Origin: Funiculus sociatus GB2-C1
GTDB lineage: Bacteria > Cyanobacteriota > Cyanobacteriia > Cyanobacteriales > FACHB-T130
Length of the DNA stretch: 64,000 bases
Assembly: GCF_039962115.1 (NCBI RefSeq)
Contig: NZ_JAMPKJ010000015.1
Span: 1-64,000, forward strand
Reading direction: 5' to 3'
Positions 121-29,098 of the stretch are shown here, piece after piece. The position numbers and the translations under genes are program-made. Position 1 is the stretch's first letter. Each line of letters opens with the position of its first letter. The notes under the pieces are model-generated. The model was not told where the DNA came from, searched no databases, and worked only from the letters and a program-made list of their open reading frames with translations.

Positions 121-891
121 TCACACAAATCCTAGTACCATAAGTTGCTCTATTTTTTTAGCAACCATTTCTAGAAGTAGCGGCCGACTACTGTTAATAA
201 AAAAGTGGTCGCCGGGAAGCATTTCTAGGGAAAATAAAGAACTTGTTTGCACACTCCAGCTTTCAATCATTTCTGGTGTCTCTCCGGAATCTTCTATTCC
301 ACCAAAGGCAGAGATAAAACAATCAAGGGGAGGTTCAGTTAGGTAAGTATATGTTCCACAGATTGAAAAATCGGCTCGCAAGATGGGCATTAACAGTTGC
401 ATCAATTCATAATGTTCTAGCACCTGTTTGGGTGTACCATTCAATTGACGTAGCTCTGACAAAAATTCAGGTTCTGGTAGCGTATGAATTAAAGGATTTC
501 GATCGGGTATCTGAGGCGCACGGCGACCCGAAATGAAGAGATGATTTGGGGTTGGCGCTTGCTCGGAGCGGAGTTTACGAGCCAGTTCAAACCCGATCAG
601 CGCACCCATACTGTGACCGAAAAAAGCGAAGGGAATATCCAAATAGGGATGGATAATTTCTGTTAGTGTCTCGACCAGAGGTGAGAGATGAGTAAAGGGT
701 GCTTCCTTAAGCCGATCTTCTCGACCAGGGAGTTGAATAGTACAAACTTCTATGTACGATGGTAAGCTATTCGACCATGTGCGAAAAATTGAAGCAGCGC
801 CTCCAGCATACGGGAAGCAGAATAAGCGAAAGTATGCTTGTGGATTCGGATTAGGACATCTAACCCAAGAATTAAAAGTTGGTGTAGTCAC
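121..891 (-). CDS. Type II thioesterase (alpha/beta hydrolase, GrsT/SrfAD family)
   Basis: This is a 256-residue stand-alone thioesterase of the kind that removes aberrant or stalled acyl groups from carrier proteins of PKS/NRPS lines. The nucleophile motif GHSMG gives Ser94. The likely acid is Asp201 (in GGIEDS) and the likely general base is His229 (in PGDHFF). The N-terminal FCFPYAGG segment is typical of the family oxyanion region, and the length matches the usual 230-260 residues. No signal peptide is seen, so it should be cytosolic. It lies on the opposite strand from the FAAL/PKS genes, beside the glycosyltransferase and exporter genes, which fits an editing role for the PKS at 12.3-18.3 kb. 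Family assignment is firm; the partner is inferred. Confidence 0.88.
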   Translation of the reverse strand: MTTPTFNSWVRCPNPNPQAYFRLFCFPYAGGAASIFRTWSNSLPSYIEVCTIQLPGREDRLKEAPFTHLSPLVETLTEIIHPYLDIPFAFFGHSMGALIGFELARKLRSEQAPTPNHLFISGRRAPQIPDRNPLIHTLPEPEFLSELRQLNGTPKQVLEHYELMQLLMPILRADFSICGTYTYLTEPPLDCFISAFGGIEDSGETPEMIESWSVQTSSLFSLEMLPGDHFFINSSRPLLLEMVAKKIEQLMVLGFV

Positions 892-1036
892 AATTGGCGG
901 TGTTACAGATACGTCTCCAAGCCACTAGAACGGAGCGATCGCTTTATAGTCGCTGCGACTTAACTGCGGCTATCGCTGGACTGCTGAGCAGGGTTCTGTT
1001 GTAAAAACTTGCAAAAATACTATTTGTCGTGGTATT

Positions 1037-2338
1037 TCAATTTATAGCATCGCTACAGATAGTGCTTGAAAAATTTTTGGCAATAGAGTTCTGAAAGCCC
1101 TCAACTGCCCGCGCCACACCGTCTTCTGACCGAATCTGCTGGCTCAAGGCAGCCACGCGAGCCTGCATGGTCTTGTCACTGGTAGCGGTATGGATAGCGT
1201 CTGCTAACCGCTCTACAGTCAGCTGTTTTTTCGGAATCGGTGGCGGTCCTACCCCTAAATCAGCAACCCGCTGCCCCCAAAAGAAGGTTTCACCAAAGGA
1301 GGGTACGATGATTGAGGGTAAACCAGCACGCAGACCAGCAAACGTTGTCCCCGAACCGCCATGATGAACCATAGCCGCCATTTGCGGTAAGAGCCAGTCA
1401 TGGGGAGCCGAGTCCGATGTGACACACAACACCTGATCTGACAATTCAGGATTGCTCAGACCCCCCCACCCCATATCCAAGATTGCCCGCACTCCCGTAA
1501 GAGCTATTGCTTCCAGCACCAACTTTGTCAGCGCTTCCGGGTTACGGTCAATTATACTGCCGAAGGTGACATACACCGGGGGTGAACCAGCAGCTAGGAA
1601 ATCAACGAGATCGGCTGAGGGCTGCCAGTCCGGTGGGCGATCCAGAAACCAGTAGCCGGTAACGTACACCCAATCGGGCCAGTCCGGCGGCTTGGGAAGC
1701 ACGGCAGGGCTGTAGCAGTAGAAAGTGGGCGACTTATAGAACCAACTAGGGACTGTGAGCGGCATGGGGGGCAGATTCAATGTTTTTTGCCGCCACTGGT
1801 TAACCGAAGACCGAATGGATTGCCAGACAAGTTGCTGAAACAAGATGTAGGTTAGCCAGTTGTAGGTGCCGCCCAAACGCAGCCCGGTCGGGGCCCAAGG
1901 AATGGGGAAAGCACGAGTCTGGGTTGCTGGATTAGTCCATGCGCTGTAAAATGGCACGCCCAATTTTTCCGCGATATGGTAGCCCGCGATCGCCAGTGGC
2001 ATACTGATAATCGCTTCCGCTCCCTGACAGGCACGCCACGAGTCAGCTAGTAAGTCTTCCATGATCGGGCCGATGAAGTTACCGATAAAGTTGCGTGTGA
2101 AGCGAATGGTGTTGCGACCGGATTCTGAAAAAATGACTTGCCCCTCTTCTGTTGCAAACAATTCCTTGAGATTGCCAGCCAAGGGGGCGAAGTCTAGCCC
2201 CTGGCTACGCACAAAATTCTCAAAGATGGCATGGGTGGCCAAACAAACTTTATGACCTGCCGCTTGCAACCCCAGCCCTAGAGCTACGTAAGGTTGTACA
2301 TCACCACGCGAACCAATTGTCAAAATCGTGATGTGCAT
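1037..2338 (-). CDS. GT1-family glycosyltransferase (MGT/sterol glucosyltransferase-like)
   Basis: A 433-residue GT-B enzyme. The N-terminus TIGSRGDVQPYVALGLGL is the classic start of the UGT80/vancomycin-type GT1 group, and the C-terminal donor-binding domain contains HHGGSGTT followed by AGLRAGLPSIIVP. Such enzymes move a sugar from a nucleotide sugar onto lipids, sterols or polyketides in the cytosol. At the end of the donor motif, where relatives usually read FGDQxFWG, this protein reads FGETFFWG. The usual Asp-Gln pair that touches the sugar is therefore Glu-Thr, which may alter donor choice. Its position between a type II thioesterase and a DevBCA exporter, facing a PKS, suggests it glycosylates the PKS product. 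The acceptor and sugar are not known. Confidence 0.88.
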   Translation of the reverse strand: MHITILTIGSRGDVQPYVALGLGLQAAGHKVCLATHAIFENFVRSQGLDFAPLAGNLKELFATEEGQVIFSESGRNTIRFTRNFIGNFIGPIMEDLLADSWRACQGAEAIISMPLAIAGYHIAEKLGVPFYSAWTNPATQTRAFPIPWAPTGLRLGGTYNWLTYILFQQLVWQSIRSSVNQWRQKTLNLPPMPLTVPSWFYKSPTFYCYSPAVLPKPPDWPDWVYVTGYWFLDRPPDWQPSADLVDFLAAGSPPVYVTFGSIIDRNPEALTKLVLEAIALTGVRAILDMGWGGLSNPELSDQVLCVTSDSAPHDWLLPQMAAMVHHGGSGTTFAGLRAGLPSIIVPSFGETFFWGQRVADLGVGPPPIPKKQLTVERLADAIHTATSDKTMQARVAALSQQIRSEDGVARAVEGFQNSIAKNFSSTICSDAIN

Positions 2339-2459
2339 ATTTCCTCCTAGTTATTAGCACGGTTGGGACACTGGGACAATTACGGTTGCTCCTTAAATAA
2401 GATTGAGTTAGTCAACACATCTAAAACACCTCCGTCATAATTACTGAATTTTTATAAAA

Positions 2460-3158
2460 CTAGTGAGTCGTGCTGTTGATCGTAACGAGTTGACCATCTT
2501 CCATATGAACAATACGGTCAGCAATATCAAGAATGCGATTATCGTGAGTCACCATGAGAACAGCACACCCCTGTTCCTTAACCAATTGCTGCATGAGTGT
2601 CACTACGTCTCGACCCGATTTACTATCCAAAGCGGCAGTAGGTTCATCAGCTAGAACCAGCTTGGGATGACACACTAAAGCGCGTGCGATCGCTACCCGC
2701 TGTTTTTGTCCTCCTGATAGATTTTCTGGATAGTAATTAATCCGGTTCCCCAACCCAACAGCCTCAAGTGCATCTGCTGATTTTCTACGTGCTTCGAGAA
2801 TAGGAACATTTTCATGTAATTTAATAGACATTTGTACATTTTGTTGAGCTGTTAATGAGCGCAGCAAATTGTGAGATTGGAAAATATAACCAATATGGCG
2901 ACGGATTTTGATGAGTTGTGCATCACTGGCTCCCCGAATCTCTTGGTCAAGAACTTTAAGGCTTCCTTCATCAACAGAGCGCAACCCCCCAATCAAAGTC
3001 AATAAGGTTGTTTTTCCCGAACCAGAGGGCCCCGATAAAATAACTATTTCTCCGGTTTTGACTTCTAAATTGATATTAGACAAAACTCGTTTGCGTAATG
3101 CTCCATTACCAAAGTAATGATTGAGATACTTAATAGAGACAATAGATTTTTGATCCAT
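2460..3158 (-). CDS. devA: DevA-like ABC transporter ATPase
   Basis: A 232-residue ATPase of the MacB/LolD class. Walker A GPSGSGKTT is at 43-51, the signature LSGGQ at 147-151, Walker B LVLADEP at 167-173, and the H-loop is MVTHD near 201. It follows devB and devC in the same direction, with only about 30 bases between the end of devC and its start. That is the standard devBCA order. In heterocystous cyanobacteria DevBCA with a TolC-type outer membrane protein exports heterocyst envelope glycolipids; homologues also occur in species without heterocysts. Here it probably powers export of a lipid or glycolipid. No TolC gene is in the window. Confidence 0.9.
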   Translation of the reverse strand: MDQKSIVSIKYLNHYFGNGALRKRVLSNINLEVKTGEIVILSGPSGSGKTTLLTLIGGLRSVDEGSLKVLDQEIRGASDAQLIKIRRHIGYIFQSHNLLRSLTAQQNVQMSIKLHENVPILEARRKSADALEAVGLGNRINYYPENLSGGQKQRVAIARALVCHPKLVLADEPTAALDSKSGRDVVTLMQQLVKEQGCAVLMVTHDNRILDIADRIVHMEDGQLVTINSTTH

Positions 3159-3188
3159 TAGCTTTCTAGAGTTTGTATGCGTAAATCT

Positions 3189-4340
3189 TTAAAAAATATC
3201 TGCTGGATCTGTACTACGCAGTCTCCGGACAGCAATAAAACCAGAAATAGCACACATCACTATTGTCAATAGCAATACTATTAAAGCTCGGTCATAGGTC
3301 ATTGCAATAGGTAAAAATGTAGCATTTTTAGTTAAATCGTACAGCCCTAGTGAAAGAGCAAATCCAGGGATATAACCTAAAACTGCAAGAATAATGGCTT
3401 CTTGGAAAACAACTAATTCTAAATATAAGTTTTTATATCCCATCGCTTTTAAAGTCGCGTATTCTGAAAGGTGATCGGAAACATCTGTATAAAGAATTTG
3501 ATAAACTATAACTGTACCAACAATGAATCCCATTCCTACACCTAAAGTAAAGATAAAACCAATTGGTGTACTTGTTTTCCAGTAGCTTTTCTCAAAATCT
3601 ACAAAACCTTGATGGGTTAAAACTCTAACATCTTTAGGTAAAGTAGCTTCTATCTGCTTAAGAATTTTTTGAGCATCAGCATTAGGTTTAAGCTGAATAA
3701 GTCCAATATCGATTTCTCCTAATTTACGATCTCTAAATAGATCCAAAAAATTTAAATCATTCACGATTACATTTCCATCAGCTCCAAAAGAAGGACCTAG
3801 TGTAAATAAACCAACAACGTTGACTCTTCTCCCGCCTAATTCGGTAGTAATGAGTTTACCCTGCTCAAATTCTGGAGCAATAGATCCATACTCTTGACGA
3901 GAAGCTCGATCGAACAAAATATTTTCACTAAGTTTAAGCTTATCTATATTCTGGGCGACTTCCGGCAATTTAAAAACAGAATCTCCTGGTCGAAAGCCAT
4001 AGACATATATGGCTCGAAAGGTTCCATCTTCAGGATTTCTCCAATCTCGAAAGCCAACATATATAGGGCTAATAGATTCAACGCCATCAAAGCTCAAAAC
4101 TTGATATAAACGTCGCCAAGAAAAAGTTCTCGTATAACCCAGAGACTTAGAACGAGTGCTGAGCAAAACTAAGTCGCCTTGCAAACTCTGATGTAGTCGT
4201 GTAGCGCTATCATAGAGAGCAGCTTGAAATCCTAATTGCATAAACATGAGAATAACGGCAAAAGCAATGCCTGCTAAAGCAACCAGCAGACGAAGTTTTT
4301 CTCTAGTTAGTTGCAGCCATGCTAAAGGTATATCAAACAT
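3189..4340 (-). CDS. devC: DevC-like ABC transporter permease (FtsX/MacB type)
   Basis: A 383-residue membrane protein with the FtsX/MacB layout: one transmembrane segment near residues 18-38, a large periplasmic domain to about residue 260, then three further transmembrane segments (about 263-285, 313-335 and 348-370). The first residues MFDIPLAWLQLTREKLR and the closing RRLRSTDPADIF are characteristic of DevC proteins. It sits between devB and devA, and the three genes form an apparent minus-strand operon. The periplasmic domain is expected to contact the DevB adaptor and pass substrate to an outer membrane channel, a mechanotransmission scheme known for MacB. The substrate here is inferred from the neighbouring PKS/glycosyltransferase genes only. 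Confidence 0.9.
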   Translation of the reverse strand: MFDIPLAWLQLTREKLRLLVALAGIAFAVILMFMQLGFQAALYDSATRLHQSLQGDLVLLSTRSKSLGYTRTFSWRRLYQVLSFDGVESISPIYVGFRDWRNPEDGTFRAIYVYGFRPGDSVFKLPEVAQNIDKLKLSENILFDRASRQEYGSIAPEFEQGKLITTELGGRRVNVVGLFTLGPSFGADGNVIVNDLNFLDLFRDRKLGEIDIGLIQLKPNADAQKILKQIEATLPKDVRVLTHQGFVDFEKSYWKTSTPIGFIFTLGVGMGFIVGTVIVYQILYTDVSDHLSEYATLKAMGYKNLYLELVVFQEAIILAVLGYIPGFALSLGLYDLTKNATFLPIAMTYDRALIVLLLTIVMCAISGFIAVRRLRSTDPADIF

Positions 4341-4399
4341 TATTGCTCTGGTTTATTAAGAGGAAAATTTATTAATAGTTTTATTGTTTTCAGGGGCAT

Positions 4400-5608
4400 C
4401 TACATATCAATTACTACATTAACCTGTAAATTGGTTAAAGCTGAAACTCTTTGGCTATCCGCTGGGTTTAGACTAATTTTTACCTCAACAATTCTCCGAT
4501 TCACGTCGGCGGTGGGGTCGGTACTTAAGACATCTTGTGGATTAACCTGTAGCCCGATTTGAGTGACTGTTCCGGATAAATTGCCTGGGAAAGCATGGCT
4601 AGTAATAGTAGCTTTTTGCCCAACTTTTACTTTGCTAACATCTAATTCATAAACCTCTGCAATTACATTCATCTGATCTGTTTGTCCCAAAGCAACAATG
4701 CCTTTATTACCAGCTGTCTCTCCGGGTCTGGTATTAATTTTTAAAATTTTTCCCTCTATAGGCGCTCGAATATAGGCTAGCTCTGAATCTGCTTTAGCTT
4801 TCTTCACATTGGCAAGCGCTCTATCAATTTCAGCTTGAGCAGCTTGCACATCTGTAGGACGAATCTCAGCCATTTGATTTAGAGTTGCTTGAGCAGCTTT
4901 TATTTGCTGTTGAAAAGTTGATTGAATCCGGTTTTGATTAACTTGGGCTTCATTTAGCTGCTCTTGTGTCGTTTTCATGAGCAGCTGCTTGCTATCTAAT
5001 TGTGAAGCTGTAACTGCACCGCTTTGGAACAATTTATCATAACGTTGGTACTCGATTCGAGCGTTGTTAAACTGAGCCAAAAGCCGCGCGATCGCTTGGT
5101 CTTGAGCGGCTTGTTGTCCAGCCAATTCGGCTTCTAAGCCTTCAATAGTCGCTTTTTGAGCTTCCAATTCTCCTGTTTTGGCTCCAGCCTTTACTTTAGC
5201 AAGATTGGCTTGAGCGACTTTGACATCTTCTAAAGCCAGTTTTACAGATGTTTGGAGATTTTCCAGGCTATCCAAAATAGCGATCGCTTGTCCTGTTGTA
5301 ACTTTATCGCCTTCCTTGACTAAAAGTTTGGCAACTCGACTTGCTCCCAATCCATTAAGAGCAGTAGGCGCAGACAAGTAAACTACTTCCCCTTCTGGTC
5401 TTAAATGTCCTAAAGCAGAAACGGCTTTATTTGTGGGAGCGATCGCTACAGGATTTGATAAGGAGGCGGACTCACTGCGTTGGAATCTCAATACATATTG
5501 TAAAGCAGCTCCGCTAAGGGCTAAAGCTGTGACAACTGTAGCAATGATAGTCCATCGTCCTGAAGGCTTCAAAAAGGGTTTATTTTTTGAAATAGAATCA
5601 GGCTTCAT
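4400..5608 (-). CDS. devB: DevB-like periplasmic adaptor (HlyD/MFP family)
   Basis: A 402-residue membrane fusion protein. A single N-terminal transmembrane anchor (about residues 19-40) is followed by a lipoyl-like half (LVKEGDKVTTGQAIAILDS). A long alanine- and glutamine-rich coiled-coil hairpin (about 120-260) comes next, then the second lipoyl half (YIRAPIEGKILKINTRPGE) and a beta-barrel/membrane-proximal region. The order and the AIAILDS motif match DevB. It is first in the minus-strand devBCA operon and its start faces the 1.6-kb divergent intergenic region shared with the FAAL gene, so the exporter and the biosynthetic genes may share regulation. No clear NtcA box was found directly upstream of it. 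Confidence 0.9.
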   Translation of the reverse strand: MKPDSISKNKPFLKPSGRWTIIATVVTALALSGAALQYVLRFQRSESASLSNPVAIAPTNKAVSALGHLRPEGEVVYLSAPTALNGLGASRVAKLLVKEGDKVTTGQAIAILDSLENLQTSVKLALEDVKVAQANLAKVKAGAKTGELEAQKATIEGLEAELAGQQAAQDQAIARLLAQFNNARIEYQRYDKLFQSGAVTASQLDSKQLLMKTTQEQLNEAQVNQNRIQSTFQQQIKAAQATLNQMAEIRPTDVQAAQAEIDRALANVKKAKADSELAYIRAPIEGKILKINTRPGETAGNKGIVALGQTDQMNVIAEVYELDVSKVKVGQKATITSHAFPGNLSGTVTQIGLQVNPQDVLSTDPTADVNRRIVEVKISLNPADSQRVSALTNLQVNVVIDM

Positions 5609-7183: not shown

Positions 7184-9022
7184 ATGACTACTTGTTTAGA
7201 TTATTCGACGGACATCGGGCATGAATTTTCGACTTTGGTAGACCTGCTGGACTACAGAGCGAAAAATCAGCCAGACTCTACAGCTTATACCTTTTTGCAG
7301 GACGGAGAAACAGAAGCTGTTACGCTGACATACAAAGAATTGGATCGACAAGCGCGAGCGATCGCATCTCAACTTCAGAGCCTGGATGCCCCAGGTTCTC
7401 GTGCTTTGCTGCTTTATCCACCAGGTTTAGAGTTCATTGCTGCCTTCTTTGGGTGTTTATATGCCTCTGTTGTAGCTGTCCCAGCATATCCACCAAGGCG
7501 CAATCAGAATATGTCCCGATTGCAAGCGATCGCATCTTCTTGCCAAGCAACAATAGCCCTCACAACCATATCCTTGTCTGGCAGCATAGAAGATCGCTTT
7601 ACCGAAGATGCAGAATTCGGCAGATTGCAGTGGCTAGCCACAGATAACATCAACAGCGACCAAGCCCAGACATGGCAGAAACCAGGCTTGGGCCAGAGTA
7701 CCCTAGCTTTTATTCAATACACATCAGGCTCTACGGGTACGCCCAAAGGAGTCATGATCACTCACGGCAACCTGTGGCACAACTCCGCCTTGATCCATCA
7801 GAGTTTCGCTGATACGCCCAACTCTCAGGGCGTAACCTGGCTGCCGTCCTACCACGATATGGGATTAATTGGGGGAGTGCTGCAACCCCTATATGTTGGC
7901 GCGCCGATGGTTTTGATGCCAGCAGTAGCGTTTATGCAAAGACCCTTCCGCTGGCTAGAAGCTATTTCCCGCTATAAAGCGACTACTAGCGGCGGGCCTA
8001 ATTTTGCTTATGACCTTTGTATTCGTAAAATTACCCCAGAACAACGAGCAACTCTTGACCTGAGTAGCTGGGAAGTAGCTTTCACCGGAGCTGAACCCGT
8101 CCGCGCCGAAACCCTAGAGCAGTTTGCCAGCACCTTCGCTGATTGTGGTTTCCGCAAAGAAGCATTTCACCCCTGCTACGGAATGGCGGAAACAACCCTG
8201 ATTGTTTCGGGAGGATTGAAAAAAGCTCCACCGATTATTCGTCAGGTTGATGGCGCAGCCCTTGAGCGAAACCGCGTAGTGGCATCTGTTGGCAAGTCGG
8301 AAAGCACCCGGACAATTGTCGGTTGCGGTCAGACTTGGTTAGACCAGAAAATCCTGATTGTCGATCCTGAGTCTTTAACCCCGTGTCTAGATACCCAAAT
8401 CGGAGAGATTTGGGTATCCGGGCCGAGTGTAGCTGACGGCTATTGGAACCGACCAGAGGAAACAGAAAAAACTTTCCACGCCTATCTAGCAGATACGAAA
8501 GAAGGGCCATTTCTGCGTACAGGGGACTTGGGATTTTTGCAGGATGGCGAATTGTTTATCACCGGGCGGATTAAAGATGTGATTATCATCCGGGGGCAAA
8601 ACCATTATCCCCAGGATATTGAACTGACAGTAGAAAAGAGCCATCCAGCACTGCGGCCTGGTTGTGGGGCAGCGTTTGCGGTGGAATTAAAAGGCGAACG
8701 ACTGGTAATCGTTCAGGAAGTTGAGCGAACTTACCTGCGGAAGCTGGATGTGAATGAAGTAGTAGGGGCTATTCGCCAGGCTGTGGCGGCGGAACACGCT
8801 CTACAGATTTATGCAACAGTGCTGGTGAAAACTGGCAGTATCCCCAAGACTTCGAGTGGTAAAATTCAACGCCATGCTTGTCGGTCTGGGTTTCTCAGTG
8901 GAAGTTTGAATGTCATCGAGGATTGGAGTGAGAATCCTCAGGGCAAATCTAAGTTTCTCAATCTACAGGCTGAGGTCGAATCCGTATTACAGAAATTATC
9001 CACAGGCAAACAGCTAAGCTGA
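7184..9022 (+). CDS. Fatty acyl-AMP ligase (FAAL)
   Basis: A 612-residue adenylate-forming enzyme. The A3 core YTSGSTGTPKGVM is near residues 180-192, SYHDMGLIGG is the characteristic FAAL segment, and RTGDLG and a C-terminal KTSSGKIQR motif follow. FAALs activate free fatty acids as acyl-adenylates and transfer them to an acyl carrier protein rather than to CoA. The ATG at 7184 is preceded by AGGAG at the right distance. The gene opens the plus-strand set that continues with a regulator, a free ACP, a diiron enzyme and a PKS. In the cylindrocyclophane pathway the order FAAL-ACP-diiron halogenase-PKS is known, so this enzyme most likely loads the ACP at 10.4 kb. Chain length cannot be read from the sequence. 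Confidence 0.92.
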   Translation: MTTCLDYSTDIGHEFSTLVDLLDYRAKNQPDSTAYTFLQDGETEAVTLTYKELDRQARAIASQLQSLDAPGSRALLLYPPGLEFIAAFFGCLYASVVAVPAYPPRRNQNMSRLQAIASSCQATIALTTISLSGSIEDRFTEDAEFGRLQWLATDNINSDQAQTWQKPGLGQSTLAFIQYTSGSTGTPKGVMITHGNLWHNSALIHQSFADTPNSQGVTWLPSYHDMGLIGGVLQPLYVGAPMVLMPAVAFMQRPFRWLEAISRYKATTSGGPNFAYDLCIRKITPEQRATLDLSSWEVAFTGAEPVRAETLEQFASTFADCGFRKEAFHPCYGMAETTLIVSGGLKKAPPIIRQVDGAALERNRVVASVGKSESTRTIVGCGQTWLDQKILIVDPESLTPCLDTQIGEIWVSGPSVADGYWNRPEETEKTFHAYLADTKEGPFLRTGDLGFLQDGELFITGRIKDVIIIRGQNHYPQDIELTVEKSHPALRPGCGAAFAVELKGERLVIVQEVERTYLRKLDVNEVVGAIRQAVAAEHALQIYATVLVKTGSIPKTSSGKIQRHACRSGFLSGSLNVIEDWSENPQGKSKFLNLQAEVESVLQKLSTGKQLS

Positions 9023-9172
9023 CACGCCTTAGCCAGTCGTCATCTTAAGAGCTGTCAAGTTGAAACGAAGTTCTGTTCTAGCAACTTTCCAACCTTATAA
9101 CGGCAACTGACAACAGAGTAGCTATTTTCCTTATTTTCTTTGTGGATAAGGGTGTGTATGGGAGCAGATGTG

Positions 9173-9970
9173 ATGAAAAAAATTCTAGTAATTGAACAGC
9201 AAACCCCTACCCGAAACCGTTTTCTCAAAGGTCTTAAAGCTAAAGGTTTCTACACTATCAGTGCTGATAACGGTCGAGTTGGGGTTCATCTGGCACAGGA
9301 GAATTTACCCGATGTGATAATTTCCGGCATTATGATGTCGGAACTCGATGGTTACGATGTTCTGACGGCGGTGCGCTCTAACCCAGTGACAGCGATTATC
9401 CCCTTCATTTTTGTCACTGCCAAGCTGACTCGGAACGATCTTCGCAAAGCTATGGAACTGGGAGCGGATGACTATCTCACCAAACCCTGTAGTTTAGAAG
9501 AATTACACCGAGCGATCGCTGCCCAATTGGAAAAACAGACCGTCCTTCGGCAGTTATACTCCCAACCATCTCCGCCAGTCCCAGCAGCATCATCCACAGA
9601 AACTGCCACTATAACAATAACAACTGCCGCGGACTTAACTTTTCCCTGCAACCCTCCCTTGAGTGAGGTATTTCGTTTCATCGAGGCTAATTATCATCGC
9701 GCGATCGCTCTCGGCGATGTCGCTCAAGCAGTTGGTTACTCCCCAGCTTACTTAACTAACCTGACCCGACGACAGACCGGACAAACCGTGCAACGCTGGA
9801 TAATCCAGCGCCGGATGGCAGCAGCCCGTTCCTTACTTCTAGAGACTGACCAGGCAGTAGAGCATATTGCTCCTAAAGTGGGCTATCACAATGCGGTTCA
9901 TTTCTTCCGCCAGTTTCGCCAATTCCACGGCACAACTCCCCAAGCTTGGAGAAACACCAATCGCAGCTAG
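9173..9970 (+). CDS. Atypical receiver domain fused to an AraC-type DNA-binding domain
   Basis: A 265-residue transcription regulator with a receiver fold (about 1-120), a Thr/Ala/Pro-rich linker (about 125-160) and an AraC double helix-turn-helix (about 165-262, ending FRQFHGTTPQAWR). The receiver is degenerate. The phospho-acceptor position reads IISGIMMSELDG, so Gly52 replaces Asp, and the N-terminal acidic pair is Glu8-Gln9. Thr82 and Lys104 are kept. It therefore probably does not respond to phosphorylation in the usual way. The ATG at 9173 is chosen because GGGAG lies 8 bases upstream; an upstream alternative start at 9140 lacks such a site. Placed between the FAAL and ACP genes, it is likely the local regulator. 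Confidence 0.82.
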   Translation: MKKILVIEQQTPTRNRFLKGLKAKGFYTISADNGRVGVHLAQENLPDVIISGIMMSELDGYDVLTAVRSNPVTAIIPFIFVTAKLTRNDLRKAMELGADDYLTKPCSLEELHRAIAAQLEKQTVLRQLYSQPSPPVPAASSTETATITITTAADLTFPCNPPLSEVFRFIEANYHRAIALGDVAQAVGYSPAYLTNLTRRQTGQTVQRWIIQRRMAAARSLLLETDQAVEHIAPKVGYHNAVHFFRQFRQFHGTTPQAWRNTNRS

Positions 9971-10426
9971 ATCGACACAAACAAGATCGAAAGAATTGTT
10001 AGTCAGATCGACAAATTAATCATTGTAATAGCATCAAACATTTTCTAAGCTTCTTGTAGCAGCCTCTTTAATATTCTTGGGGAAGAGTAAACAAAGAGGA
10101 GATTAGATCAATGAGAACTTTTTAGCTCTCAGGCACCATTTCGCACGATAAGCGAGAAGAAATCGTCGATATCAGGTTGTCTTTAAAAAATATCTTTTTG
10201 TCATAATGGCAACCTGAAGCCAATTTTTGTCAGCTTGGTCATTAGTTCAACCGCAAATAAAGCTAATACGGCTTGAACCAAAGGCACAGGAAATTTTGAG
10301 AATTTATATCAGTTGTGCTGGAGTCTAAACAGCAGCTTTACCTACATTTATGGCACTCATTTCTTAGCCATCAGTACAACTGACAGTCAGCAAAAAACAG
10401 CACTTGAACCCCTGAAGGTTGAAACA
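9971..10426. other. Intergenic region before the ACP gene
   Basis: No convincing gene. The left part has two close copies of AGATCGAC. Around 10167-10217 there are widely spaced inverted arms CAGGTTG and CAACCTG. A long upstream extension of the ACP frame is open to 10313, but the natural start is at 10427. The region may contain a promoter for the ACP and diiron enzyme genes; no clear box was identified. Confidence 0.4.
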
Positions 10427-10741
10427 ATGCAAATCCAGAATCTTCAAGCCACAAATATGTCTACGGCTTCGGGAATGATTATCAAAGAAGCCCCGACGGC
10501 ACCAGAAATTCAAGCGTGGATTGTCTCCTATCTAGCTGAACTACTAGAAATCGAGCCGGATGAAGTTAATGTCACGATTCCCTTTGACCAATACGGTCTA
10601 GACTCTTCAGCAGCAGTTGGTATGACCGGGGACATGGAAGATTGGATGGGAAGAAAACTCGATCCAACCCTACTGTACGATTACCCTACTATTCAGGGTT
10701 TGGCTAGGCATTTGGCTGAGGAATTAAAAATCAAAGTGTAA
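10427..10741 (+). CDS. Free-standing acyl carrier protein
   Basis: A 104-residue acyl carrier protein. The phosphopantetheine site is YGLDSSAAVG with Ser60, followed by helix II/III features (LLYDYPTIQGLARHLAEEL) of PKS-type ACPs. A poorly conserved 20-25 residue N-terminal tail precedes the domain. The ATG at 10427 is preferred over the open upstream extension because the extra N-terminal sequence is not ACP-like. It lies about 100 bases before the diiron enzyme gene and downstream of the FAAL gene, so it should receive the acyl-adenylate and present the acyl chain to the diiron enzyme and then to the PKS ketosynthase. A dispersed G-rich repeat lies between this gene and the next. Confidence 0.9.
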   Translation: MQIQNLQATNMSTASGMIIKEAPTAPEIQAWIVSYLAELLEIEPDEVNVTIPFDQYGLDSSAAVGMTGDMEDWMGRKLDPTLLYDYPTIQGLARHLAEELKIKV

Positions 10742-10742
10742 G

Positions 10743-10776
10743 GCTGGGGACTGGGGGCTGGAAACTGGGAACTGGA
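10743..10776. repeat. G-rich CTGGGGA/CTGGGAA-type dispersed repeat
   Basis: A short run of near-repeats of the form GGGGACTGG, GGGGCTGG, GGGAACTGG sits between the ACP gene and the diiron enzyme gene. It belongs to the same class as the heptanucleotide-like tracts seen at 27102-27127, 45847-46010 and 60412-60456. Confidence 0.6.
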
Positions 10777-10843
10777 AATAAGAAATTCCTAGTGAAAGAA
10801 GAATCAACATTTGCACTCTTACGCTTTTAGGAAAAGGTTAATT

Positions 10844-12220
10844 ATGGTAGATACAGCAACACCAGCTTTAAAATTTGAATCTTCAAGTTTATCGGAGGAG
10901 AAGGTAAAAAAGCATATCAAAATCACCGAAATCAACTATCGTCGGAACACTGATTCCGACTACACTGAGAAAATCGAGGAATTAGACAAAAACTTCAACT
11001 ACAGCAGCAACAGCGATTATTATTGGAGTCAGCCGGAGCTTTCAATGCTTTACGGCACCCCACTTTATGAACAAGCCTCCGACTCCCAAAAGAAAGCTCT
11101 AAATCACGTTTATTGGGCAACGCAGTATAACCAAACTGCTGCTACCGAAGCTAATGCCGTACTTTACAATCAGGTGACTGCTGGCGTTTTTTCTCAGATG
11201 AGTGATTACACAACACTCTGCCAAGAACTAGACCTAGAAACAGAACAGGAACGTCATCACATTCATGCTTTTCACACAATTGGTTATAAAACAAAAAAAG
11301 CCCTGCTAGGGAAGACAGCATTTAGTGCGCCTAAGCAAGGGAAGTCAAACCAATTGAACAAAAATCAACCACAACTTTTCAGCTTTAACTTGCAAAGTTC
11401 GCCGATGTCGGCGTTTCAGGACACCGCCTTTCGCTTTATCACCAATAAGGTGATGCTGAAGAACCAAGCACAGTATTATTCCCACTATTTGAGAGAATTG
11501 GAGCAAAAAGGCGAGTTTATTCCAGCACAAACGACTGGCTTGTTGGGGCAAATAGCGCCAAAACCGATGTTACAGTTTTTTACCTTAAACTGTGGCAGTT
11601 CGCCCTTCTTGGCTTGCGTGTTCTACGTCACGCGGTTTTTAGCCAATATGTTGCTCAAGAACTATGAATACCGCTATGTCCAATACTACAGGGACTTAGA
11701 GAGGCAAGGCGAGTTTATCCCAGCCCCGACAGCTGTCTCCTATAACCATCTGATGGATGAATCTTTTCACACTACAACGAGCGAGCTAATCGCTCAAGAT
11801 TTGTATAAGGATTTCTCGAAGCCAACAGCATATGAGAAATTCATCGCTAATGTAACGATCTATCGGGCGCAAAGTGTCGGTTTGAGCGGTCTTTCTGGGG
11901 GACTACCGGGGATATTTAGAACTGATGCTTCTTTCATGCTCTCGTTTTACAAGTTGCTTCAGTCTCCTGTATTTAATATGTCCTCCCAAGAAGCACTCCA
12001 GTGGGTTGAGAAGTGTTTGTGTCAAGAACACGAGGGTTTCTATATAAATCTCAAGTATCACCAACGCCTGCTGATAGATTTGCGTAGGTTTTTTGAGGAG
12101 ATGGATTACCTTTGGCCTGTCAACCGTGAAATGCGCCTGATGGCTACAGGAGGCTCGATTGAGCGGGCTATCAAAACTAATATTAAGGCTTTTGACGAGT
12201 TATCCCGATCTGTCGCCTAA
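10844..12220 (+). CDS. Non-haem diiron enzyme of the AurF/CylC type (putative halogenase or oxygenase)
   Basis: A 458-residue protein. Counting from the ATG at 10844 (GGAAAAGG just upstream), the metal-ligand pattern of AurF-like diiron proteins can be read: Glu102 in ATEANAV, Glu136-x-x-His139 in QERHHIHAF, and His302-x3-Glu306-x2-His309 in HLMDESFH. Between these lies an internal duplication: FRFITNKVMLKNQAQYY with GEFIPAQT (about 196-230) is echoed by TRFLANMLLKNYEYRYV with GEFIPAPT (about 263-297). CylC-type dimetal halogenases occur after a FAAL and an ACP in cyanobacterial pathways and modify unactivated carbons of ACP-bound fatty acids. The gene order FAAL-ACP-this-PKS matches. Hydroxylation or desaturation instead of halogenation remains possible. 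The fold call is good, the reaction is inferred. Confidence 0.6.
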   Translation: MVDTATPALKFESSSLSEEKVKKHIKITEINYRRNTDSDYTEKIEELDKNFNYSSNSDYYWSQPELSMLYGTPLYEQASDSQKKALNHVYWATQYNQTAATEANAVLYNQVTAGVFSQMSDYTTLCQELDLETEQERHHIHAFHTIGYKTKKALLGKTAFSAPKQGKSNQLNKNQPQLFSFNLQSSPMSAFQDTAFRFITNKVMLKNQAQYYSHYLRELEQKGEFIPAQTTGLLGQIAPKPMLQFFTLNCGSSPFLACVFYVTRFLANMLLKNYEYRYVQYYRDLERQGEFIPAPTAVSYNHLMDESFHTTTSELIAQDLYKDFSKPTAYEKFIANVTIYRAQSVGLSGLSGGLPGIFRTDASFMLSFYKLLQSPVFNMSSQEALQWVEKCLCQEHEGFYINLKYHQRLLIDLRRFFEEMDYLWPVNREMRLMATGGSIERAIKTNIKAFDELSRSVA

Positions 12221-12234
12221 GTCTGTCGCCTAAG
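12209..12234. repeat. Tandem 13-bp duplication over a stop codon
   Basis: TCTGTCGCCTAAG occurs twice back to back. The first copy contains the stop codon of the diiron enzyme gene. This looks like a recent slippage duplication with no effect on the protein. Confidence 0.85.
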
Positions 12235-12352
12235 AAAGTGCGGTGTAGGTTGGGTCTTCGGTACTCAACCATTCGTGTCCTGTCAACTGGATAAATGGTT
12301 GGGTTTCCCGACAGTAATCCCGACCTGAAAATTGACCATGAGAGGCTTTGCA

Positions 12353-15300
12353 GTGGAACCTATAGCAATTATTGGTCTTGGTTGTCGTTTTCCGGGAGCT
12401 AACGATCCGGAAGCCTTCTGGCAACTATTGAGTAACGGTGTGGATGCGATCGCGCAAGTGCCAAAAGAGCGATGGGATATTGACGCATTCTATGACCCAG
12501 AACCAGGTAAGCCGGGAAAAATGAGTACCCGCTGGGGTGGCTTCTTGGAACAAGTGGATCAATTTGAACCCAGCTTCTTTGGGATTGCTCCCCGCGAGGT
12601 GGAGCGAATGGACCCCCAGCAAAGGCTGGCGTTGGAAGTAGCTTGGGAAGCCCTGGAAAATGCCGCAATCGTGCCATCAAAGCTGAGTGGCACTCAAACA
12701 GGGGTTTTCATGGCAATCGGCAACTATGACTATTGCAGATTGCTAACCAAAGATTTAAACCTGGTTAACGCTTACGATGGCACTGGCAATACCCTCTCTA
12801 TTACCGCCAATCGTCTATCGTACATTCTGAATCTGCGCGGGCCAAGTGTGGTAATTGAAACTGCCTGTTCTTCTTCTCTGGTTGCATTGCATTATGCTTG
12901 CCGAAGTTTGGAGAGTGGAGAGTCTAATTTGTGCTTGGTAGGTGGAGTCAGTTTGATGCTGTCTCCGGAGCCATTTATTACCTACTCCCATGCGCGGATG
13001 ATGGCGGCGGACGGTCGCTGTAAGACTTTTGATGCCAGTGCGGATGGTTATGTCCGGGGAGAAGGATGCGGTGTTGTAGTCCTCAAGCGTCTTTCGGATG
13101 CTCTCCGAGATGGAGACAACATTAAAGCAGTTATCAAAGGTTCGGCTGTTAACCAAGATGGCCTAAGCAATGGACTCACAGCACCGAATGGCCCTTCTCA
13201 GCAAGCGGTGATCCGTCAAGCTTTGGAAAATGCTGATGTGCAAGCAACGCAGATTAGCTATGTTGAAGCTCATGGTACTGGCACATCTTTAGGAGATCCC
13301 ATCGAATTTAAATCTCTAAAAGCTGTGCTAATGCAGAATCGCGAGCCAGATCAACCTTGTTGGATTGGCTCGGTTAAAACTAATATTGGTCATTTGGAAG
13401 CTGCTTCTGGGATGGCTAGTGTCATCAAGGTGGTACTTTCGCTACAACATAAAGAAATTCCACCGCACTTGCATCTCAAGCAGCTGAATCCTTATATTTC
13501 TTTGGAAGGGACGACCTTTGCTATTCCTGCTGAGTCTCAAGCTTGGGATGTTGGTACACAGAGACGCTTAGCTGGGATTAGTGCGTTTGGTTTCGGGGGG
13601 ACGAATTGCCATGCAATTTTGGAGGAAGCACCGCAGAACCTTACCCCGCCTCCTGCTACCGCTCCCATCTGGGCAAGTTTAGAGGGGTTGGGGGTGACGT
13701 GCGATCAGCCAACGGATGATATCACAACTCTCGAACGTCCTCTGCATCTTCTTACCCTTTCGGCAAAGACTGAGAACGCTTTGAGGGAATTGGCACAACG
13801 TTATGCAAATTTCTTCGCGACGCATCCTGAAGCATCCCTGGAGGATGTTTGCTTTACTGCAAATACAGCGCGATCGCATTTTGACCATCGTTTTGCTGTA
13901 ACAGCTGAATCTACTGTGCAGTTGCAAGAGCAGTTAACGGCTTTTGCTGCTGGTAAAGAAACTGTCGGACTGGTCAGCAACCCGGTAAAAAGCAATAAGC
14001 GCCCGAAAATAGCATTTTTATTTACTGGTCAAGGTTCGCAGTATGTGGGGATGGGACGCGAACTCTACGCAACGCAACCTATTTTCCGCCAAGCACTTGA
14101 TGGTTGCGATCGCATTCTGCGTCCTTATTTAGAACAACCCTTACTATCAGTTCTATATCCCGAATCTGGGATGAATTCCCCTTTAAATGAAACCGCATAC
14201 ACGCAACCTGCATTATTTGCACTGGAATATGCACTCTTCCAGTTATGGAAATCTTGGGGTCTAACTCCGGATGTTGTCATGGGTCATAGTGTAGGGGAAT
14301 ATGTCGCCGCCTGTGTTTCGGGGGTATTCAGCCTGGAAGATGGTCTAAAATTGATTGCCGAACGCGCCCGTTTGATGCAGGCTTTGCCCGCAGGTGGTGA
14401 GATGGTGGCGGTGTTTGCTTCGGAAAGCAAAGTGCAAGCAGTCATCCAACCATATATCCAAGAGGTTGCGATCGCAGCCATTAATGGCCCAAAGAGTATT
14501 GTTATTTCTGGTCAGGCTGAGGCTGTCGGACAAGCGATCGCATCTTTGCAAGCTGAAGGCATCAAGACGAAAAAGTTGACCGTTTCCCATGCCTTCCACT
14601 CTCCCTTAATGTCGCCCATGCTGGCAGATTTTGAGAGAGTCGCCGCAGAAATTCCATATTCTTCGCCAAAAGTCAAGTTAGTTTCCAATGTTACTGGGGA
14701 ACTAGCAACAGATGCGATCGCCACCCCTGAGTATTGGTGTCGTCATGTGCTTGAGCCAGTCAGATTTGCCAAGAGCATGGAAACCCTTTATCAGAAGGGT
14801 TATAAGGTATTTGTCGAGATCGGTCCGAAGCCGATTTTGTTGGGGATGGGACGCTACTGCTTGCCAGATGCAGAGACATTCGCATCTTTACCAAGTTTGC
14901 GTCCAGAGTGTTCAGATTGGCAGCAAATCCTCCAGAGTTTAGCAGAACTATATGTGCGTGGAGTGGCTGTAGACTGGTCTGGCTTTGACCAAGATTACCC
15001 CCGTCGCCGTCTGCAACTACCAACTTATCCATTCCAGCGACAGCGGTATTGGGTAGAGTTCTCTGAAAATGGTCACTCAAACGAAAAGCCTCTCACCCCA
15101 ATGGTTAAGCTTCTGAACCAGGGGGATACTCAACAGCTAATTCAGCAGTTAGAAACCATAGGGAAACTTTCAGAAGATGAGTTGAAATTATTGCCGAAGC
15201 TGCTGGAATTATTAGTTAAGCAAAATAAACAGCCGCTAACAGCAGCATCTATCAAAGATTGGCTGTATGAGATAGAGTGGCAACTTAAACCGCGTCAGTT

Positions 15301-18300
15301 GACGGAAAACCAAACGATTCAGGCTCCTGAGTCCAGTTCCCCTCCCCTGCGAGGGGAGGGGCTAGGGGAGAGGTCTGGCCGTTGGCTGATTTTTGCAGAC
15401 TTGGGGGGTGTAGGGGAAAATTTAGCGATTTTGCGCGATCGCTGCAACTGTATTCTGGTCTATCCGGGAGACACCTATCAAACCACAGAACCCGGAACTT
15501 ACACCATCAACCCTTCCAATCCAGCCGACTTTGAGCGTTTATTCCAAGAAATAGGGAATCCACCTTTACAGGGAATCCTCCACCTGTGGAGTTTAGAGGC
15601 GGGATTGGCAGATAAGTTAACAATTCCCTCTCTAGAAAATGCACAAACTCTAGGCGTTGCTAGTGTACTAAATTTACTGCAAACTCTGACTGGGAAAGAA
15701 AATCAATTCTCAATTTCCAATTCCCAACCCAAGTTGTGGTTAGTAACGCGGGGTGCAGTACCAGTTGGTGGTTCGCTTCCGGGAGTTGCTCAAGCACCCT
15801 TATGGGGACTGGGCAAAGTCGTGGCTCTGGAACACCGGGAATTGTGGGGTGGAATGCTCGATTTAGCCCCTGAAGCAACTGAAGATGAAGCCGCGAAGCT
15901 GTTAGCAGAAATTGAGAATGCACAAGGGGAAGACCATCTCGCCTTCCGGGATGGACAGCGTTATGTCGCCCGTTTGGTGCAAAAGGAACTACCAGAATCT
16001 CAAGGCGTGGCGTTAAATGCTGATAGCACTTACCTGATTACTGGGGGTTTGGGAGCCTTGGGGCTGAAAGTTGCCCAGTGGATGCTGGAACAGGGCGCTA
16101 AACACTTGGTACTAACTGGACGCAGTGCAGTTTCCAGCCAGGCGCGGGAAGTTATTACCCAGATGGAGCAAGCAGGAGCCGAGATTTTAGTTGCTCAGGC
16201 AGATGTCTGCAATGGGGGGGATATGCTCAGAGTGCTTGAGGAAGTTGAAGCCTCAATGCCACCCCTACGAGGGGTTATTCATGCTGCTGGGGTTTCTCGA
16301 TATGAAGCGATCGCAGATATGGATTTAAACGCCCTTAACTCTGTGTTGCGTCCGAAGTTAGTAGGAACTTGGATTCTGCATAAACTTACCCAAGAAATTA
16401 AGCTTGACTTTTTCGTTAGCTTCTCCTCAATATCTGCGGTGTGGGGTTCTAAAGGACAAGCGCACTATGCGGCGGCGAACCATTTCCTAGATATGTTGGC
16501 ACATTATCGTCTTGGACTTGGGCTACCAGCTTTAAGTGTAAATTGGGGCCCTTGGGCTGGCGGCGGTATGGCGCTAGAAGAATTCCAGACATTCTTGACG
16601 CGGATGGGAGTGGAAGCATTGCAACCACAGCAAGCACTTTCCGCCTTGGGATATCTTCTAGGAGCAGGTTGCGTTCAGACAACAGTGGCGAATGTCGATT
16701 GGACTTTATTCAAAGACCTTTATGAAGCCAGAGGAAAGCGATCGCTATTAGAACTGCTTGAGGTGCGATCTCCCGAAACGCCACAACAGTCGGTGCAACG
16801 ATCGGAGATTCTACAACGATTGGAGACAACTCCTGTAAGCGATCACCACTCTCTGTTAATAACTCACCTCCAAAGTGAAGTTGCAAAAGTGCTGCGCTTA
16901 CCTCAATTGCCAGATCCGCAGCAAGGTCTATTTGATCTAGGAATGGACTCTCTCATGGCAGTTGAGGTTGTCAGTTTGATTCGCTCTCAATTACAAATCG
17001 AATTACCTGTCAGGGAGTTTCTAGAAGCATCAAACATTACCCTCCTGGCAGCCCTATTGCTTAAGCAACTGACACCAGATATTTCTACAGTAGATGTGAC
17101 AGTAAATGTCTTAAATCTCTACGATGAAGCTGTCTTAGATGAGGCAATTAATCCCAACACAGCAAATGAGCAGACGGGAGCAGCTTCGATTCTCCTAACT
17201 GGTGCCAGTGGATTTTTAGGAGCCTTTTTGCTTAAAGAACTCCTCGAACAGACTGACACAAACATCTATTGCTTAGTACGGGCTGCTGATGCTGAAGTAG
17301 GCAAGCTGAAAATCCGAAACAATCTGAAATCTTACGACCTATGGAAGGAGAAGTACAATTCGAGAATTATTTCAATTGCTGGAAATTTATCTCAGCCACG
17401 GTTGGGGCTTTCAACAGAACAATTTAAAAATCTTGCCCGCACAATTGATATTATTTATCACAATGCGGCAACTTTGAATTTTGTTTATCCTTATTCAGCA
17501 TTAAAGCCAACTAATGTTTTGGGTACGCAAGAAATCCTCAGGTTAGCTTGTCAATTTAAAGTCAAACCCCTGCATTATGTTTCAACTGATGCCGTTTTTG
17601 ATTCATCTGGTTATTACGGAAAGGAGGTGAAAGAATCAGAGCCAACTATTCATATTGAGGGAATAGACCTTGGTTATACCCAAACAAAATGGGTAGCGGA
17701 AAAGTTAGTTACCATAGCACGCGATCGCGGACTTCCAGTTTCTATCTACAGACCGCCTTTAATTGCCGGAGACAGCAAAACAGGAATTTGGAATACAGAT
17801 GATTTTACCTGCCGATTTCTTAAAGGCTGTATCCAAATGGGTAGTATGCCAAATATGAACTGTGGCATAACTATTGTGCCTGTGGATTATGTCAGCCAAG
17901 CGGTTGTCTATCTATCAAGGCAGAAAGAATCAATCGGAAAAGCTTTTCACTTAAATAATCCTAACTTTTCGAGTTGGGATGAAGTAGCAAATTGGATCGA
18001 TGATTTGGGCTATCCAGTGCGACAGATTTCCTATGAAGAATGGGAAGCAGAGTTAATAGAAACAGTTGGTTCTAAAGACAATGCTTTAAGCGGTCTTTTA
18101 CCTTTCTTTCTGCGGAGATGGTCTGATGAACAACTGACCTTCGCCGGACTAGGACAACGAAGAGTCAAACTCAACTGTCAAGATACAGTAACCAAGCTTG
18201 CAGATTCTGCGATCGCTTGTCCTCGCGTAGACTCTAAACTGCTGAAAACCTATTTCTCATACTTCAATCGTAGTGGATTTCTAAATGCACCAAAAGTGCG

Positions 18301-18307
18301 GGCATGA
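12353..18307 (+). CDS. Type I polyketide synthase, KS-AT-KR-ACP-thioester reductase
   Basis: About 1,984 residues. The ketosynthase has Cys172 in TACSSS plus EAHGTGT and NIGHLE. The acyltransferase has Ser646 in GHSVGEY and the malonyl-type motif HAFH. The ketoreductase has GGLGALG near 1230 and Tyr1372 in AHYAAAN. An ACP with Ser1533 in GMDSL and a C-terminal NAD(P)H thioester reductase (GASGFLG near 1617, Tyr1775/Lys1779) follow. No dehydratase or enoylreductase is seen between AT and KR. One round would add two carbons, leave a 3-hydroxyl and release an aldehyde or alcohol. GTG at 12353 is chosen for GAGAGG 7 bases upstream; ATG at 12338 is the alternative. An in-frame dispersed repeat lies in the linker before the KR half. 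The likely starter comes from the upstream ACP. Confidence 0.9.
15335..15376. repeat. Palindromic dispersed repeat inserted in frame in the PKS
   Basis: CCCCTCCCC followed by GGGGAGGGG and a GGGGAGAGG tail form a hairpin-like element inside the PKS coding sequence. It encodes [14 protein letters not shown] in the linker between the acyltransferase post-region and the ketoreductase structural half. It keeps the frame, so it is tolerated as an inter-domain loop. Confidence 0.75.
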
Positions 18308-20752: not shown

Positions 20753-20898
20753 TCCTCGGAGAGGTTTACTTCCTGAATGTGTGACTAAAAACAATTATTG
20801 TACAAACGGATTTGATATAAGCTGTCTTCTCTGAATACAAAATTAATTCTCTTTTGTAAATTTCTGCTTGTTTTGAATAAATATGAGGATTGAATTTA

Positions 20899-22152: not shown

Positions 22153-22205
22153 GGGAACTTAGATACTTTTTCAACATTTAAGAACATTTGTTAGGTGAAA
22201 CTGAC

Positions 22206-26570: not shown

Positions 26571-26594
26571 TTTATTTGATCTCCTCAAAGGCAA

Positions 26595-29025: not shown

Positions 29026-29098
29026 GTGCTTTGATAAAGCTACGGGGTTGCATCTATCCTAAATATTGATTAATTTAAGTTTCTATAAATTTAAGATT

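Follow-up and report, generated by a model that had tools for sequence, protein, structure and literature searches.

A compact ngl-like polyketide synthase locus of Funiculus sociatus, predicted to make a chlorinated and O-alkylated glycolipid

The predicted pathway

The analyzed stretch of DNA (the window) comprises positions 1-64000 of contig C15 (G000:C15) in the 6.47 Mb genome of Funiculus sociatus GB2-C1. Its left part contains a gene cluster for a fatty acyl-AMP ligase (FAAL), a stand-alone acyl carrier protein (ACP), a CylC-type diiron protein, a type I polyketide synthase (PKS), glycosyltransferases (GTs), a DevBCA exporter and two CylK homologues. Judged by sequence, it is a reductase-ended, single-module variant of the known FAAL-ACP-CylC-PKS and ngl-type clusters that bears both GT and CylK genes. 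With moderate confidence we propose that it encodes a compact ngl-like pathway, in which a cryptically chlorinated glycolipid would be exported and O-alkylated by CylK into ether-linked oligomers; the predicted product is an exported, O-alkylated glycolipid of a mid-chain-chlorinated 1,3-diol. The gene families, catalytic residues and conserved linkage are read from the sequence, and from them we infer chlorination, the starter, the product, ether formation and the place of action. Since the genes for the CylK homologues, the GT4, a methyltransferase and a FabZ-type dehydratase lie beyond position 18307, where the stretch covered by an earlier sequence-only reading ended, the pathway region is placed at about 121-26594.

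In the proposed scheme, FAAL would activate a long-chain fatty acid and load it onto the stand-alone ACP, and the CylC-type diiron enzyme would chlorinate an unactivated mid-chain carbon. The PKS would add one malonyl unit, with its ketoreductase (KR) domain reducing the new ketone, situated on C1 of the starter, to a hydroxyl, and the terminal reductase would release a 3-hydroxy aldehyde or a 1,3-diol. A sugar would be added by the GT4, possibly with further decoration by the GT1 and the methyltransferase, and the lipid would be exported by DevBCA. Finally, one or both CylK homologues would activate the C-Cl bond, and chloride would give way to an oxygen nucleophile, for which the 3-hydroxyl of a second chain is the most likely candidate, so that ether-linked oligomers are formed.

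The positions of the chlorine and the hydroxyl are suggested by analogy with ngl. The chlorine-bearing lipid C12 of nostochloroside A is reported to derive from palmitate C7, and C6 carries an internal hydroxyl (PMC10849952). By our own arithmetic, lipid C6 then corresponds to palmitate C1, and the C6 hydroxyl fits ketoreduction following the first extension; the ngl-like locus described below encodes a KR domain in its first PKS gene. With the single module of the window, the hydroxyl would end up at this starter carbon too and would, after reductive release, be O3 of the 1,3-diol. The hydroxyl-chlorine spacing proposed for NglO, the CylK homologue of ngl, would be kept and the alternative O2 removed, with the starter and the chlorine site borrowed from ngl.

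Conservation of the cluster

A scan with one genome per species identified 13 loci (L009-L021) with relatives at 65-75% identity; this number is a minimum, as the scan relied on exact peptide patterns. Twelve of them come from records labelled as cyanobacteria, and one from a metagenome-assembled genome (MAG) labelled Chloroflexaceae. The close type is present in at least 2 of 386 genomes of the phylum, namely the window genome and the genome of L017 (G289, G394 and L017 are one genome, counted once). In these relatives, the genes for FAAL, the ACP, the diiron protein and the PKS occur jointly; single full-length matches show identities of 57-80% (FAAL) and 51-71% (PKS), and because of this joint recurrence the gene arrangement is judged not to be due to chance.

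The following counts include the window. Those for downstream genes are without L010, L013 and L014, whose contigs stop ahead of the PKS end; the DevC count is without L014 and L018, and the thioesterase and full-DevBCA counts, made without L010 and L013 as well, cover the 10 loci having at least 6 kb upstream. In all 11 loci reaching far enough, a GT gene comes after the PKS, with or without CylK in between (GT4 in nine, a GT28/MGDG-synthase-like protein in L011 and L018), and DevC stands beside FAAL in 10 of 12, being absent in L019 and L021. Other genes are more variable: a thioesterase is seen in 5/10 loci (window, L011, L012, L016, L017), a response-regulator homologue adjoins FAAL in eight of the 13 related loci, and a FabZ homologue follows the GT in L012, L015, L016 and L017. 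Homologues of the methyltransferase (61-66% identity) were identified in 4 of the 17 other genomes searched, these being the ngl-like one, the CylC-CylK genomes G167 and G101, and the genome of L021.

The sequence-only reading described FAAL, ACP, AurF/CylC-like and KS-AT-KR-ACP-R genes on the plus strand and DevBCA, GT1 and type II thioesterase genes on the minus strand, and all of these genes are present at the stated places. Its view of a modified, glycosylated and DevBCA-exported lipid is likewise supported by the regular presence of the GT and of DevC. It named homologous clusters consistently lacking GT and DevBCA as the observation that would speak against it; the GT and DevC counts are of the opposite kind, but the complete exporter is seen in half of the loci only (see below). 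The GT1 gene (1037..2338), which it took as evidence of glycosylation, has no counterpart in the 13 related loci; the GT retained across the family is instead the GT4 at 20890, with a GT28 taking its place in two relatives.

The diiron protein as a predicted halogenase

The diiron protein scores 20.1 bits with the Pfam AurF model (cut-off 29.6), and thus Pfam alone would not name it. Its assignment as a predicted CylC/NocO-type halogenase is based on motifs, gene context and 47-58% identity to same-position proteins in FAAL-ACP-X-PKS loci. Chlorination by NocO is reported to require nine residues, seven of them within the motifs QExxH and HxxDExxH (PMC12101540). Both motifs are found in the window protein and its 13 relatives, and all nine positions are invariant across these 14 sequences. 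In particular, Glu286 precedes the motif Asp by 30 residues, the same spacing as that of E252 and D282 in NocO; the seven motif residues and Glu286 follow PMC12101540, while Glu113, the ninth, is assigned by position only. The same nine letters occur in 31 of 32 homologues, the exception having Gln in the position of Glu286, as noted for a small subset (PMC12101540). In the tree, where homologues were identified by context, window-type proteins form one clade (support 1.000), separate from the 18 other homologues. A sequence search of the PDB with the diiron protein gave no match at E up to 1.

The sequence-only reading left the choice between a hydroxylated and a chlorinated lipid. Because halogenase motifs and two CylK homologues are present, chlorination is more likely, and hydroxylation is disfavoured.

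The exceptional homologue with Gln is encoded on contig C24 of the same genome (L071, G000:C24:38825-39952). It is distant, with 31% identity, and possibly belongs to the Rieske-associated class.

The CylK homologues

The gene of CylK homologue 1 starts approximately 100 bases past position 18307. The protein matches CylK from the PDB over CylK residues 94-666 (E 7.4e-149), and Pfam identifies in it beta-propeller repeats and an RTX motif. Homologue 2 aligns to residues 59-643 of homologue 1 with 55% identity, and the alignments of both cover the N-terminal calcium-binding and C-terminal beta-propeller domains of CylK. Since CylK and BrtB are reported to take the CylC-made alkyl chloride as the electrophile (PMC8916777; PMC7081238), the chlorine is probably a leaving group here, a role that the sequence-only reading missed because its stretch stops just short of the CylK gene.

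In the alignment of homologue 1 with CylK, the halide residues Arg105 and Tyr473 correspond to Arg93 and Tyr451, and Asp440 corresponds to Glu421. Among the 14 CylK homologues of the window and related genomes, both halide residues are present in all, and all have Glu in the Asp440 position, the residue reported there for the O-alkylating BrtB and NglO. With 17 homologues of other genomes added, the halide residues are retained in 31/31 and Glu in 30/31 (Leu in G412). Of 22 further CylK loci, 18 entered the residue and tree analyses (L101, L102, L103 and L107 were left out), and L089 gave no open frame.

The two homologues belong to different branches of the tree, homologue 2 grouping with CylK homologues of L009-L013, L015-L018 and L020 (support 0.993), and homologue 1 with CylK of L021 from Mastigocoleus testarum (support 1.000). 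In nine of the 11 loci (window, L009, L011, L012, L016, L017, L018, L020, L021), a CylK homologue lies on the PKS contig at no more than about 7 kb from the PKS end, and for the short contigs L010, L013 and L014 it is found elsewhere in the assembly, on another contig. Of the nine genomes with a CylK match, seven have CylC-type and CylK-type genes on one contig; the surveys of both families scored few candidates per genome, and these tallies are lower bounds.

The PKS and its terminal reductase

Pfam identifies KS, AT, KR, PP-binding and NAD_binding_4 domains in the PKS, and its terminus scores 362.5 bits with the thioester-reductase model TIGR01746 (cut-off 213.35). The reductase end is present in the PKS of all 11 loci reaching that far. 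A reductase probe gave no match among those listed for 18 comparison stretches (L052-L068, L071), and L109 contains a free-standing reductase-like gene (22% identity, PF07993 90 bits). Catalytic motifs of the KS, AT and KR domains are intact across nine aligned PKSs; the ACP and reductase motifs were examined in the window PKS alone. The AT motif is HAFH, which we take to be malonyl-type.

The nine PKSs differ in the KR domain. The LDD motif is present in L012, L015, L016, L017 and L020; the window, L009 and L021 lack it and have Trp before the catalytic Tyr, while L018 lacks it and has Phe there. As the rule for A- and B-type KRs relates these features (LDD motif, Trp) to the configuration of the hydroxyl, the configuration of the 3-hydroxyl may differ or have switched within a family of otherwise syntenic PKSs.

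Some related loci have further peculiarities. The PKS of L011 (11577-17630) is split over two open reading frames (ORFs), and in L019 (7934-17228, the MAG labelled Chloroflexaceae) both FAAL and the PKS are in several pieces; frameshifts, decay or assembly errors could account for this. A stand-alone ketosynthase gene, which may extend the acyl chain, follows the GT4 gene in L009 (19199-20449), L012, L015 and L019 (checked by Pfam in L009 only), and none was seen at the matching position of the window.

Alternative readings

Several observations weigh against the proposed pathway. The Asp440 residue, replaced by Glu here, is called highly conserved in CylK homologues keeping both halide residues in the eLife study. 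The CylK homologue of L015 lies on a different contig from the cluster, and none was found in the L019 genome. DevB, DevC and DevA are all seen in only 5/10 loci (window, L012, L015, L016, L020), and no Dev gene was seen at L019 or L021. Just two of the six published ngl oligonucleotides match the ngl-like locus used for comparison (L052 with L109), in the methyltransferase and DevB genes with two mismatches each, and the other four have no match among the loci compared. Structure prediction for the diiron protein, with 14 sequences as input, yielded pLDDT 36.6 and pTM 0.23 and was not used.

Among the alternatives, the one that survives best, being unlikely rather than implausible, retains the same chlorinated glycolipid and lets CylK esterify a free fatty acid, as BrtB does, instead of alkylating the hydroxyl of another chain. 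Glu in the Asp440 position is reported for both O-alkylating members, BrtB as well as NglO, and none of the 14 homologues has Glu in the position of Glu374. However, BrtB is reported with Arg in the latter position, which here is occupied by Gln, Asn, Ser, Thr or Pro, and the common possession of a GT4, a methyltransferase and an RTX-tailed CylK speaks for ngl.

More doubtful is the possibility that the chlorinated 1,3-diol glycolipid is itself the end product, with the CylK homologues acting otherwise or on another substrate. The location of CylK in L015 and its apparent absence from L019 would agree with this, as would the accumulation of nostochloroside monomers as chlorinated lipids (PMC10849952), but the retention of both halide-binding residues in all 14 homologues and the proximity of CylK to most clusters argue against it. 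Deletion of nglO is reported to raise the chlorinated monomer (PMC10849952).

It is improbable that the core makes an unglycosylated chlorinated hydroxy-aldehyde or diol and has GT and Dev genes only as unconnected neighbours. The lack of conservation of the GT1, the variation of the GT family by locus (GT4 or GT28) and the often incomplete Dev set near the cluster would agree with this, but a GT invariably follows the PKS (or PKS and CylK) and DevC adjoins FAAL in most loci. Finally, hydroxylation or desaturation of the acyl chain by the diiron enzyme, giving a non-halogenated product like heterocyst glycolipids (HGs), has very little probability. AurF-type enzymes do include oxygenases, and hgl-bearing strains provide an example of a 1,3-diol glycoside (PMC11804610), but the halogenase motifs of window-type proteins are conserved, including Gln replacing Asp135 of AurF, and homologues of alkyl-chloride-using enzymes are encoded alongside.

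The place of the CylK step

The tails of the CylK proteins suggest where the ether-forming step of the proposed pathway may occur. A type I secretion target domain (TIGR03661, cut-off 17.6) forms the end of both homologue 1 (35.5 bits) and CylK of L021 (29.1 bits). These two proteins, like the copies of L011, L016 and L017, have RTX repeats scoring above the Pfam cut-off (23). CylK of L009 and L010 is narrowly above the PEP-CTERM cut-off of 16 (16.3 and 16.9, respectively), and that of L012 carries DUF4114. No export-type domain was found by Pfam and NCBIfam in homologue 2 and the copies of L014 and L015, by the NCBIfam scan in L020, or by the Pfam scan in L013; the truncated copy of L018 stood outside these scans. 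The genome encodes two HlyB-type exporters and two exosortases above cut-offs. Concerning NglO, the ngl authors suggest that its RTX domain might associate with membranes (PMC10849952).

An extracytoplasmic CylK step is possible. As a tentative extension of the pathway, which we consider doubtful in this full form, DevBCA would export the chlorinated glycolipid, and exported CylK-type enzymes (with RTX/type I secretion or PEP-CTERM-like tails) would polymerise it outside the cytoplasm, chloride leaving and an ether-linked lipid layer of the envelope being formed. If so, this would be extracellular cryptic-halogenation chemistry.

Tails vary among CylK orthologues (RTX, PEP-CTERM-like, DUF4114 or none). 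The copies of L074, L076 and L080, as well as homologue 2, have PEP-CTERM-like tails with no signal peptide visible by eye. PEP-CTERM export of homologue 2 is a weak candidate, its tail being PEP-CTERM-like by eye only and not called by NCBIfam or Pfam.

Gene content of the locus

Genes of the pathway region are listed in Table 1. The best FAAL models score 350-468 bits, under their curated cut-offs, and the protein resembles FadD32-type FAALs. The genes of DevA, DevC and DevB are adjacent and each product is above its curated cut-off, consistent with a complete DevBCA exporter. Outside the region, positions 29066-36313 of the window encode a protein of 2415 amino acids, in which Ser/Thr kinase, histidine kinase and receiver regions can be seen by eye.

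Table 1. Genes of the pathway region, with positions in the window and supporting matches
Product	Position	Strand	Evidence
Type II thioesterase	121..891	-	Pfam Thioesterase 171.8 bits; counterparts in L011, L012, L016, L017
GT28/GT1-type glycosyltransferase	1037..2338	-	Pfam Glyco_transf_28, EryCIII-like_C; unmatched in L009-L021
DevA exporter ATPase	2460..3158	-	TIGR02982 370.7 bits (cut-off 295.8)
DevC exporter permease	3189..4340	-	TIGR01185 553.3 bits (cut-off 290.35)
DevB membrane fusion protein	4400..5608	-	TIGR02971 362.2 bits (cut-off 129)
FAAL	7184..9022	+	AMP-binding 231.7 bits; FAAL models
Response regulator with AraC-type DNA-binding output	9140..9970	+	Pfam Response_reg, HTH_18
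Stand-alone ACP	10313..10741	+	PP-binding 57.8 bits
Predicted CylC/NocO-type diiron halogenase	10811..12220	+	QERHH and HLMDESFH motifs
Type I PKS module KS-AT-KR-ACP with terminal thioester reductase	12332..18307	+	Pfam/TIGRFAM domains, catalytic motifs
CylK homologue 1 with RTX / type I secretion tail	18415..20709	+	PDB CylK E 7.4e-149; TIGR03661 35.5 bits
GT4 glycosyltransferase	20890..22152	+	Glycos_transf_1 135.3 bits; GT4 homologue in 8 related loci
Methyltransferase, common to ngl-like loci	22188..23186	+	Methyltransf_23
FabZ-type dehydratase	23600..24100	+	TIGR01750 198.7 bits (cut-off 155.15)
CylK homologue 2	24558..26594	-	55% identity to homologue 1

Comparison with known systems

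Clusters of the FAAL-ACP-CylC-PKS type are a known class, reported for chlorosphaerolactylate, columbamide, microginin and puwainaphycin-like compounds (PMC8406957). The type I PKS class of CylC clusters described there has the same FAAL-ACP-CylC-type I PKS order as the window, where the reductase end, GT, DevBCA and CylK are additional. Type I PKS clusters with homologues of BrtB and CylK have been described (PMC7081238). Of the CylK homologues that retain both halide residues, just 19% are reported to be clustered with the resorcinol-forming CylI (PMC8916777). Members of the window type may therefore already be present in published supplements; the searched literature, supplements not being covered, contains no description of a reductase-ended, GT- and CylK-bearing type. 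With the cylindrocyclophane (cyl) and bartoloside (brt) clusters the window shares the pairing of a CylC-type halogenase with a CylK/BrtB-type enzyme, but a Pfam scan of 20 window ORFs found no type III PKS (CylI) or other resorcinol-forming enzyme.

The hgl islands and the 1,3-diol glycoside HG analogs resemble the window in three respects, namely Dev/Hgd-type export, release by reduction and a 1,3-diol glycoside (here a predicted one) as the product (PMC11804610), while hgl relies on PUFA-synthase-like enzymes (HglE). Hgl-bearing strains are known to contain 1,3-diol glycosides that lack chlorine, and the main text of that source contains no occurrence of 'halogen', 'fatty acyl' or 'AurF' (PMC11804610). 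The reading of the window as an hgl island was rejected, since the best PUFA-synthase-like match of the genome lies on contig C16 (804.6 bits, cut-off 1010.1), and the window PKS scores 390.5 bits. The C16 region itself (G000:C16:17508-26820, HglE-like, under the cut-off) is a possible hgl-like island.

A chlorosulfolipid pathway was also considered and rejected, no sulfotransferase being seen in the same 20 ORFs. CylC homologues near DevB, DevC, DevA and sulfotransferase genes were observed on plasmids of Gloeothece verrucosa PCC 7822 (L067 3752-30382) and Stanieria sp. NIES-3757 (L068 11932-19064), the latter also with a P450; these could encode exported chlorinated sulfolipids.

The best-matching published system, and the near answer to a gene combination that the sequence-only reading could not name, is ngl (pks3) of Nostoc punctiforme ATCC 29133, shown experimentally to make chlorinated gulose glycolipids, the nostochlorosides, whose monomers are ether-joined by NglO (PMC10849952). 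Both clusters combine FAAL, a CylC-type halogenase, a type I PKS, a GT and an RTX-tailed CylK with the Arg/Tyr/Glu site. However, the window has one PKS module ending in a reductase, whereas ngl has a multi-module line with a C21 tail and no reductase end; moreover, the window has a second CylK homologue and a halogenase of a separate clade. By sequence, the window cluster is thus ngl-like but not ngl, and represents a distinct, shorter type.

The comparison was made with a locus of the genus of Nostoc sp. UHCC 0926 (L052 with L109), which we call ngl-like by its gene content and oligonucleotide matches, rather than with the N. punctiforme genes themselves. It encodes a thioesterase, FAAL, ACP, CylC, PKS modules, SDR, GT4, two methyltransferases, an RTX-tailed CylK and, after three other genes, DevB. 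Identities to the window proteins are 59% for GT4, 64-65% for the methyltransferases and 45% for the RTX-tailed CylK. The terminus of this CylK, TDFRIV, is close to SDFRIV, hand-read from a published primer, and the oligonucleotide site in the methyltransferase gene also matches the window methyltransferase, with two mismatches.

The ngl cluster is approximately 36 kb long and is called hard to express by its authors, who leave open whether the nucleophile of NglO is O2 or O6 and favour O6 (PMC10849952). In the predicted window product, a 1,3-diol glycosylated at O1, the only free hydroxyl of the aglycone would be O3 on the starter carbon, with no equivalent of O2. If the window CylK homologues make ethers, the O6-type linkage would be supported and could be addressed with far fewer genes, and the two CylK lineages, together with the loci in which no CylK lies close by, provide natural cases for comparison.

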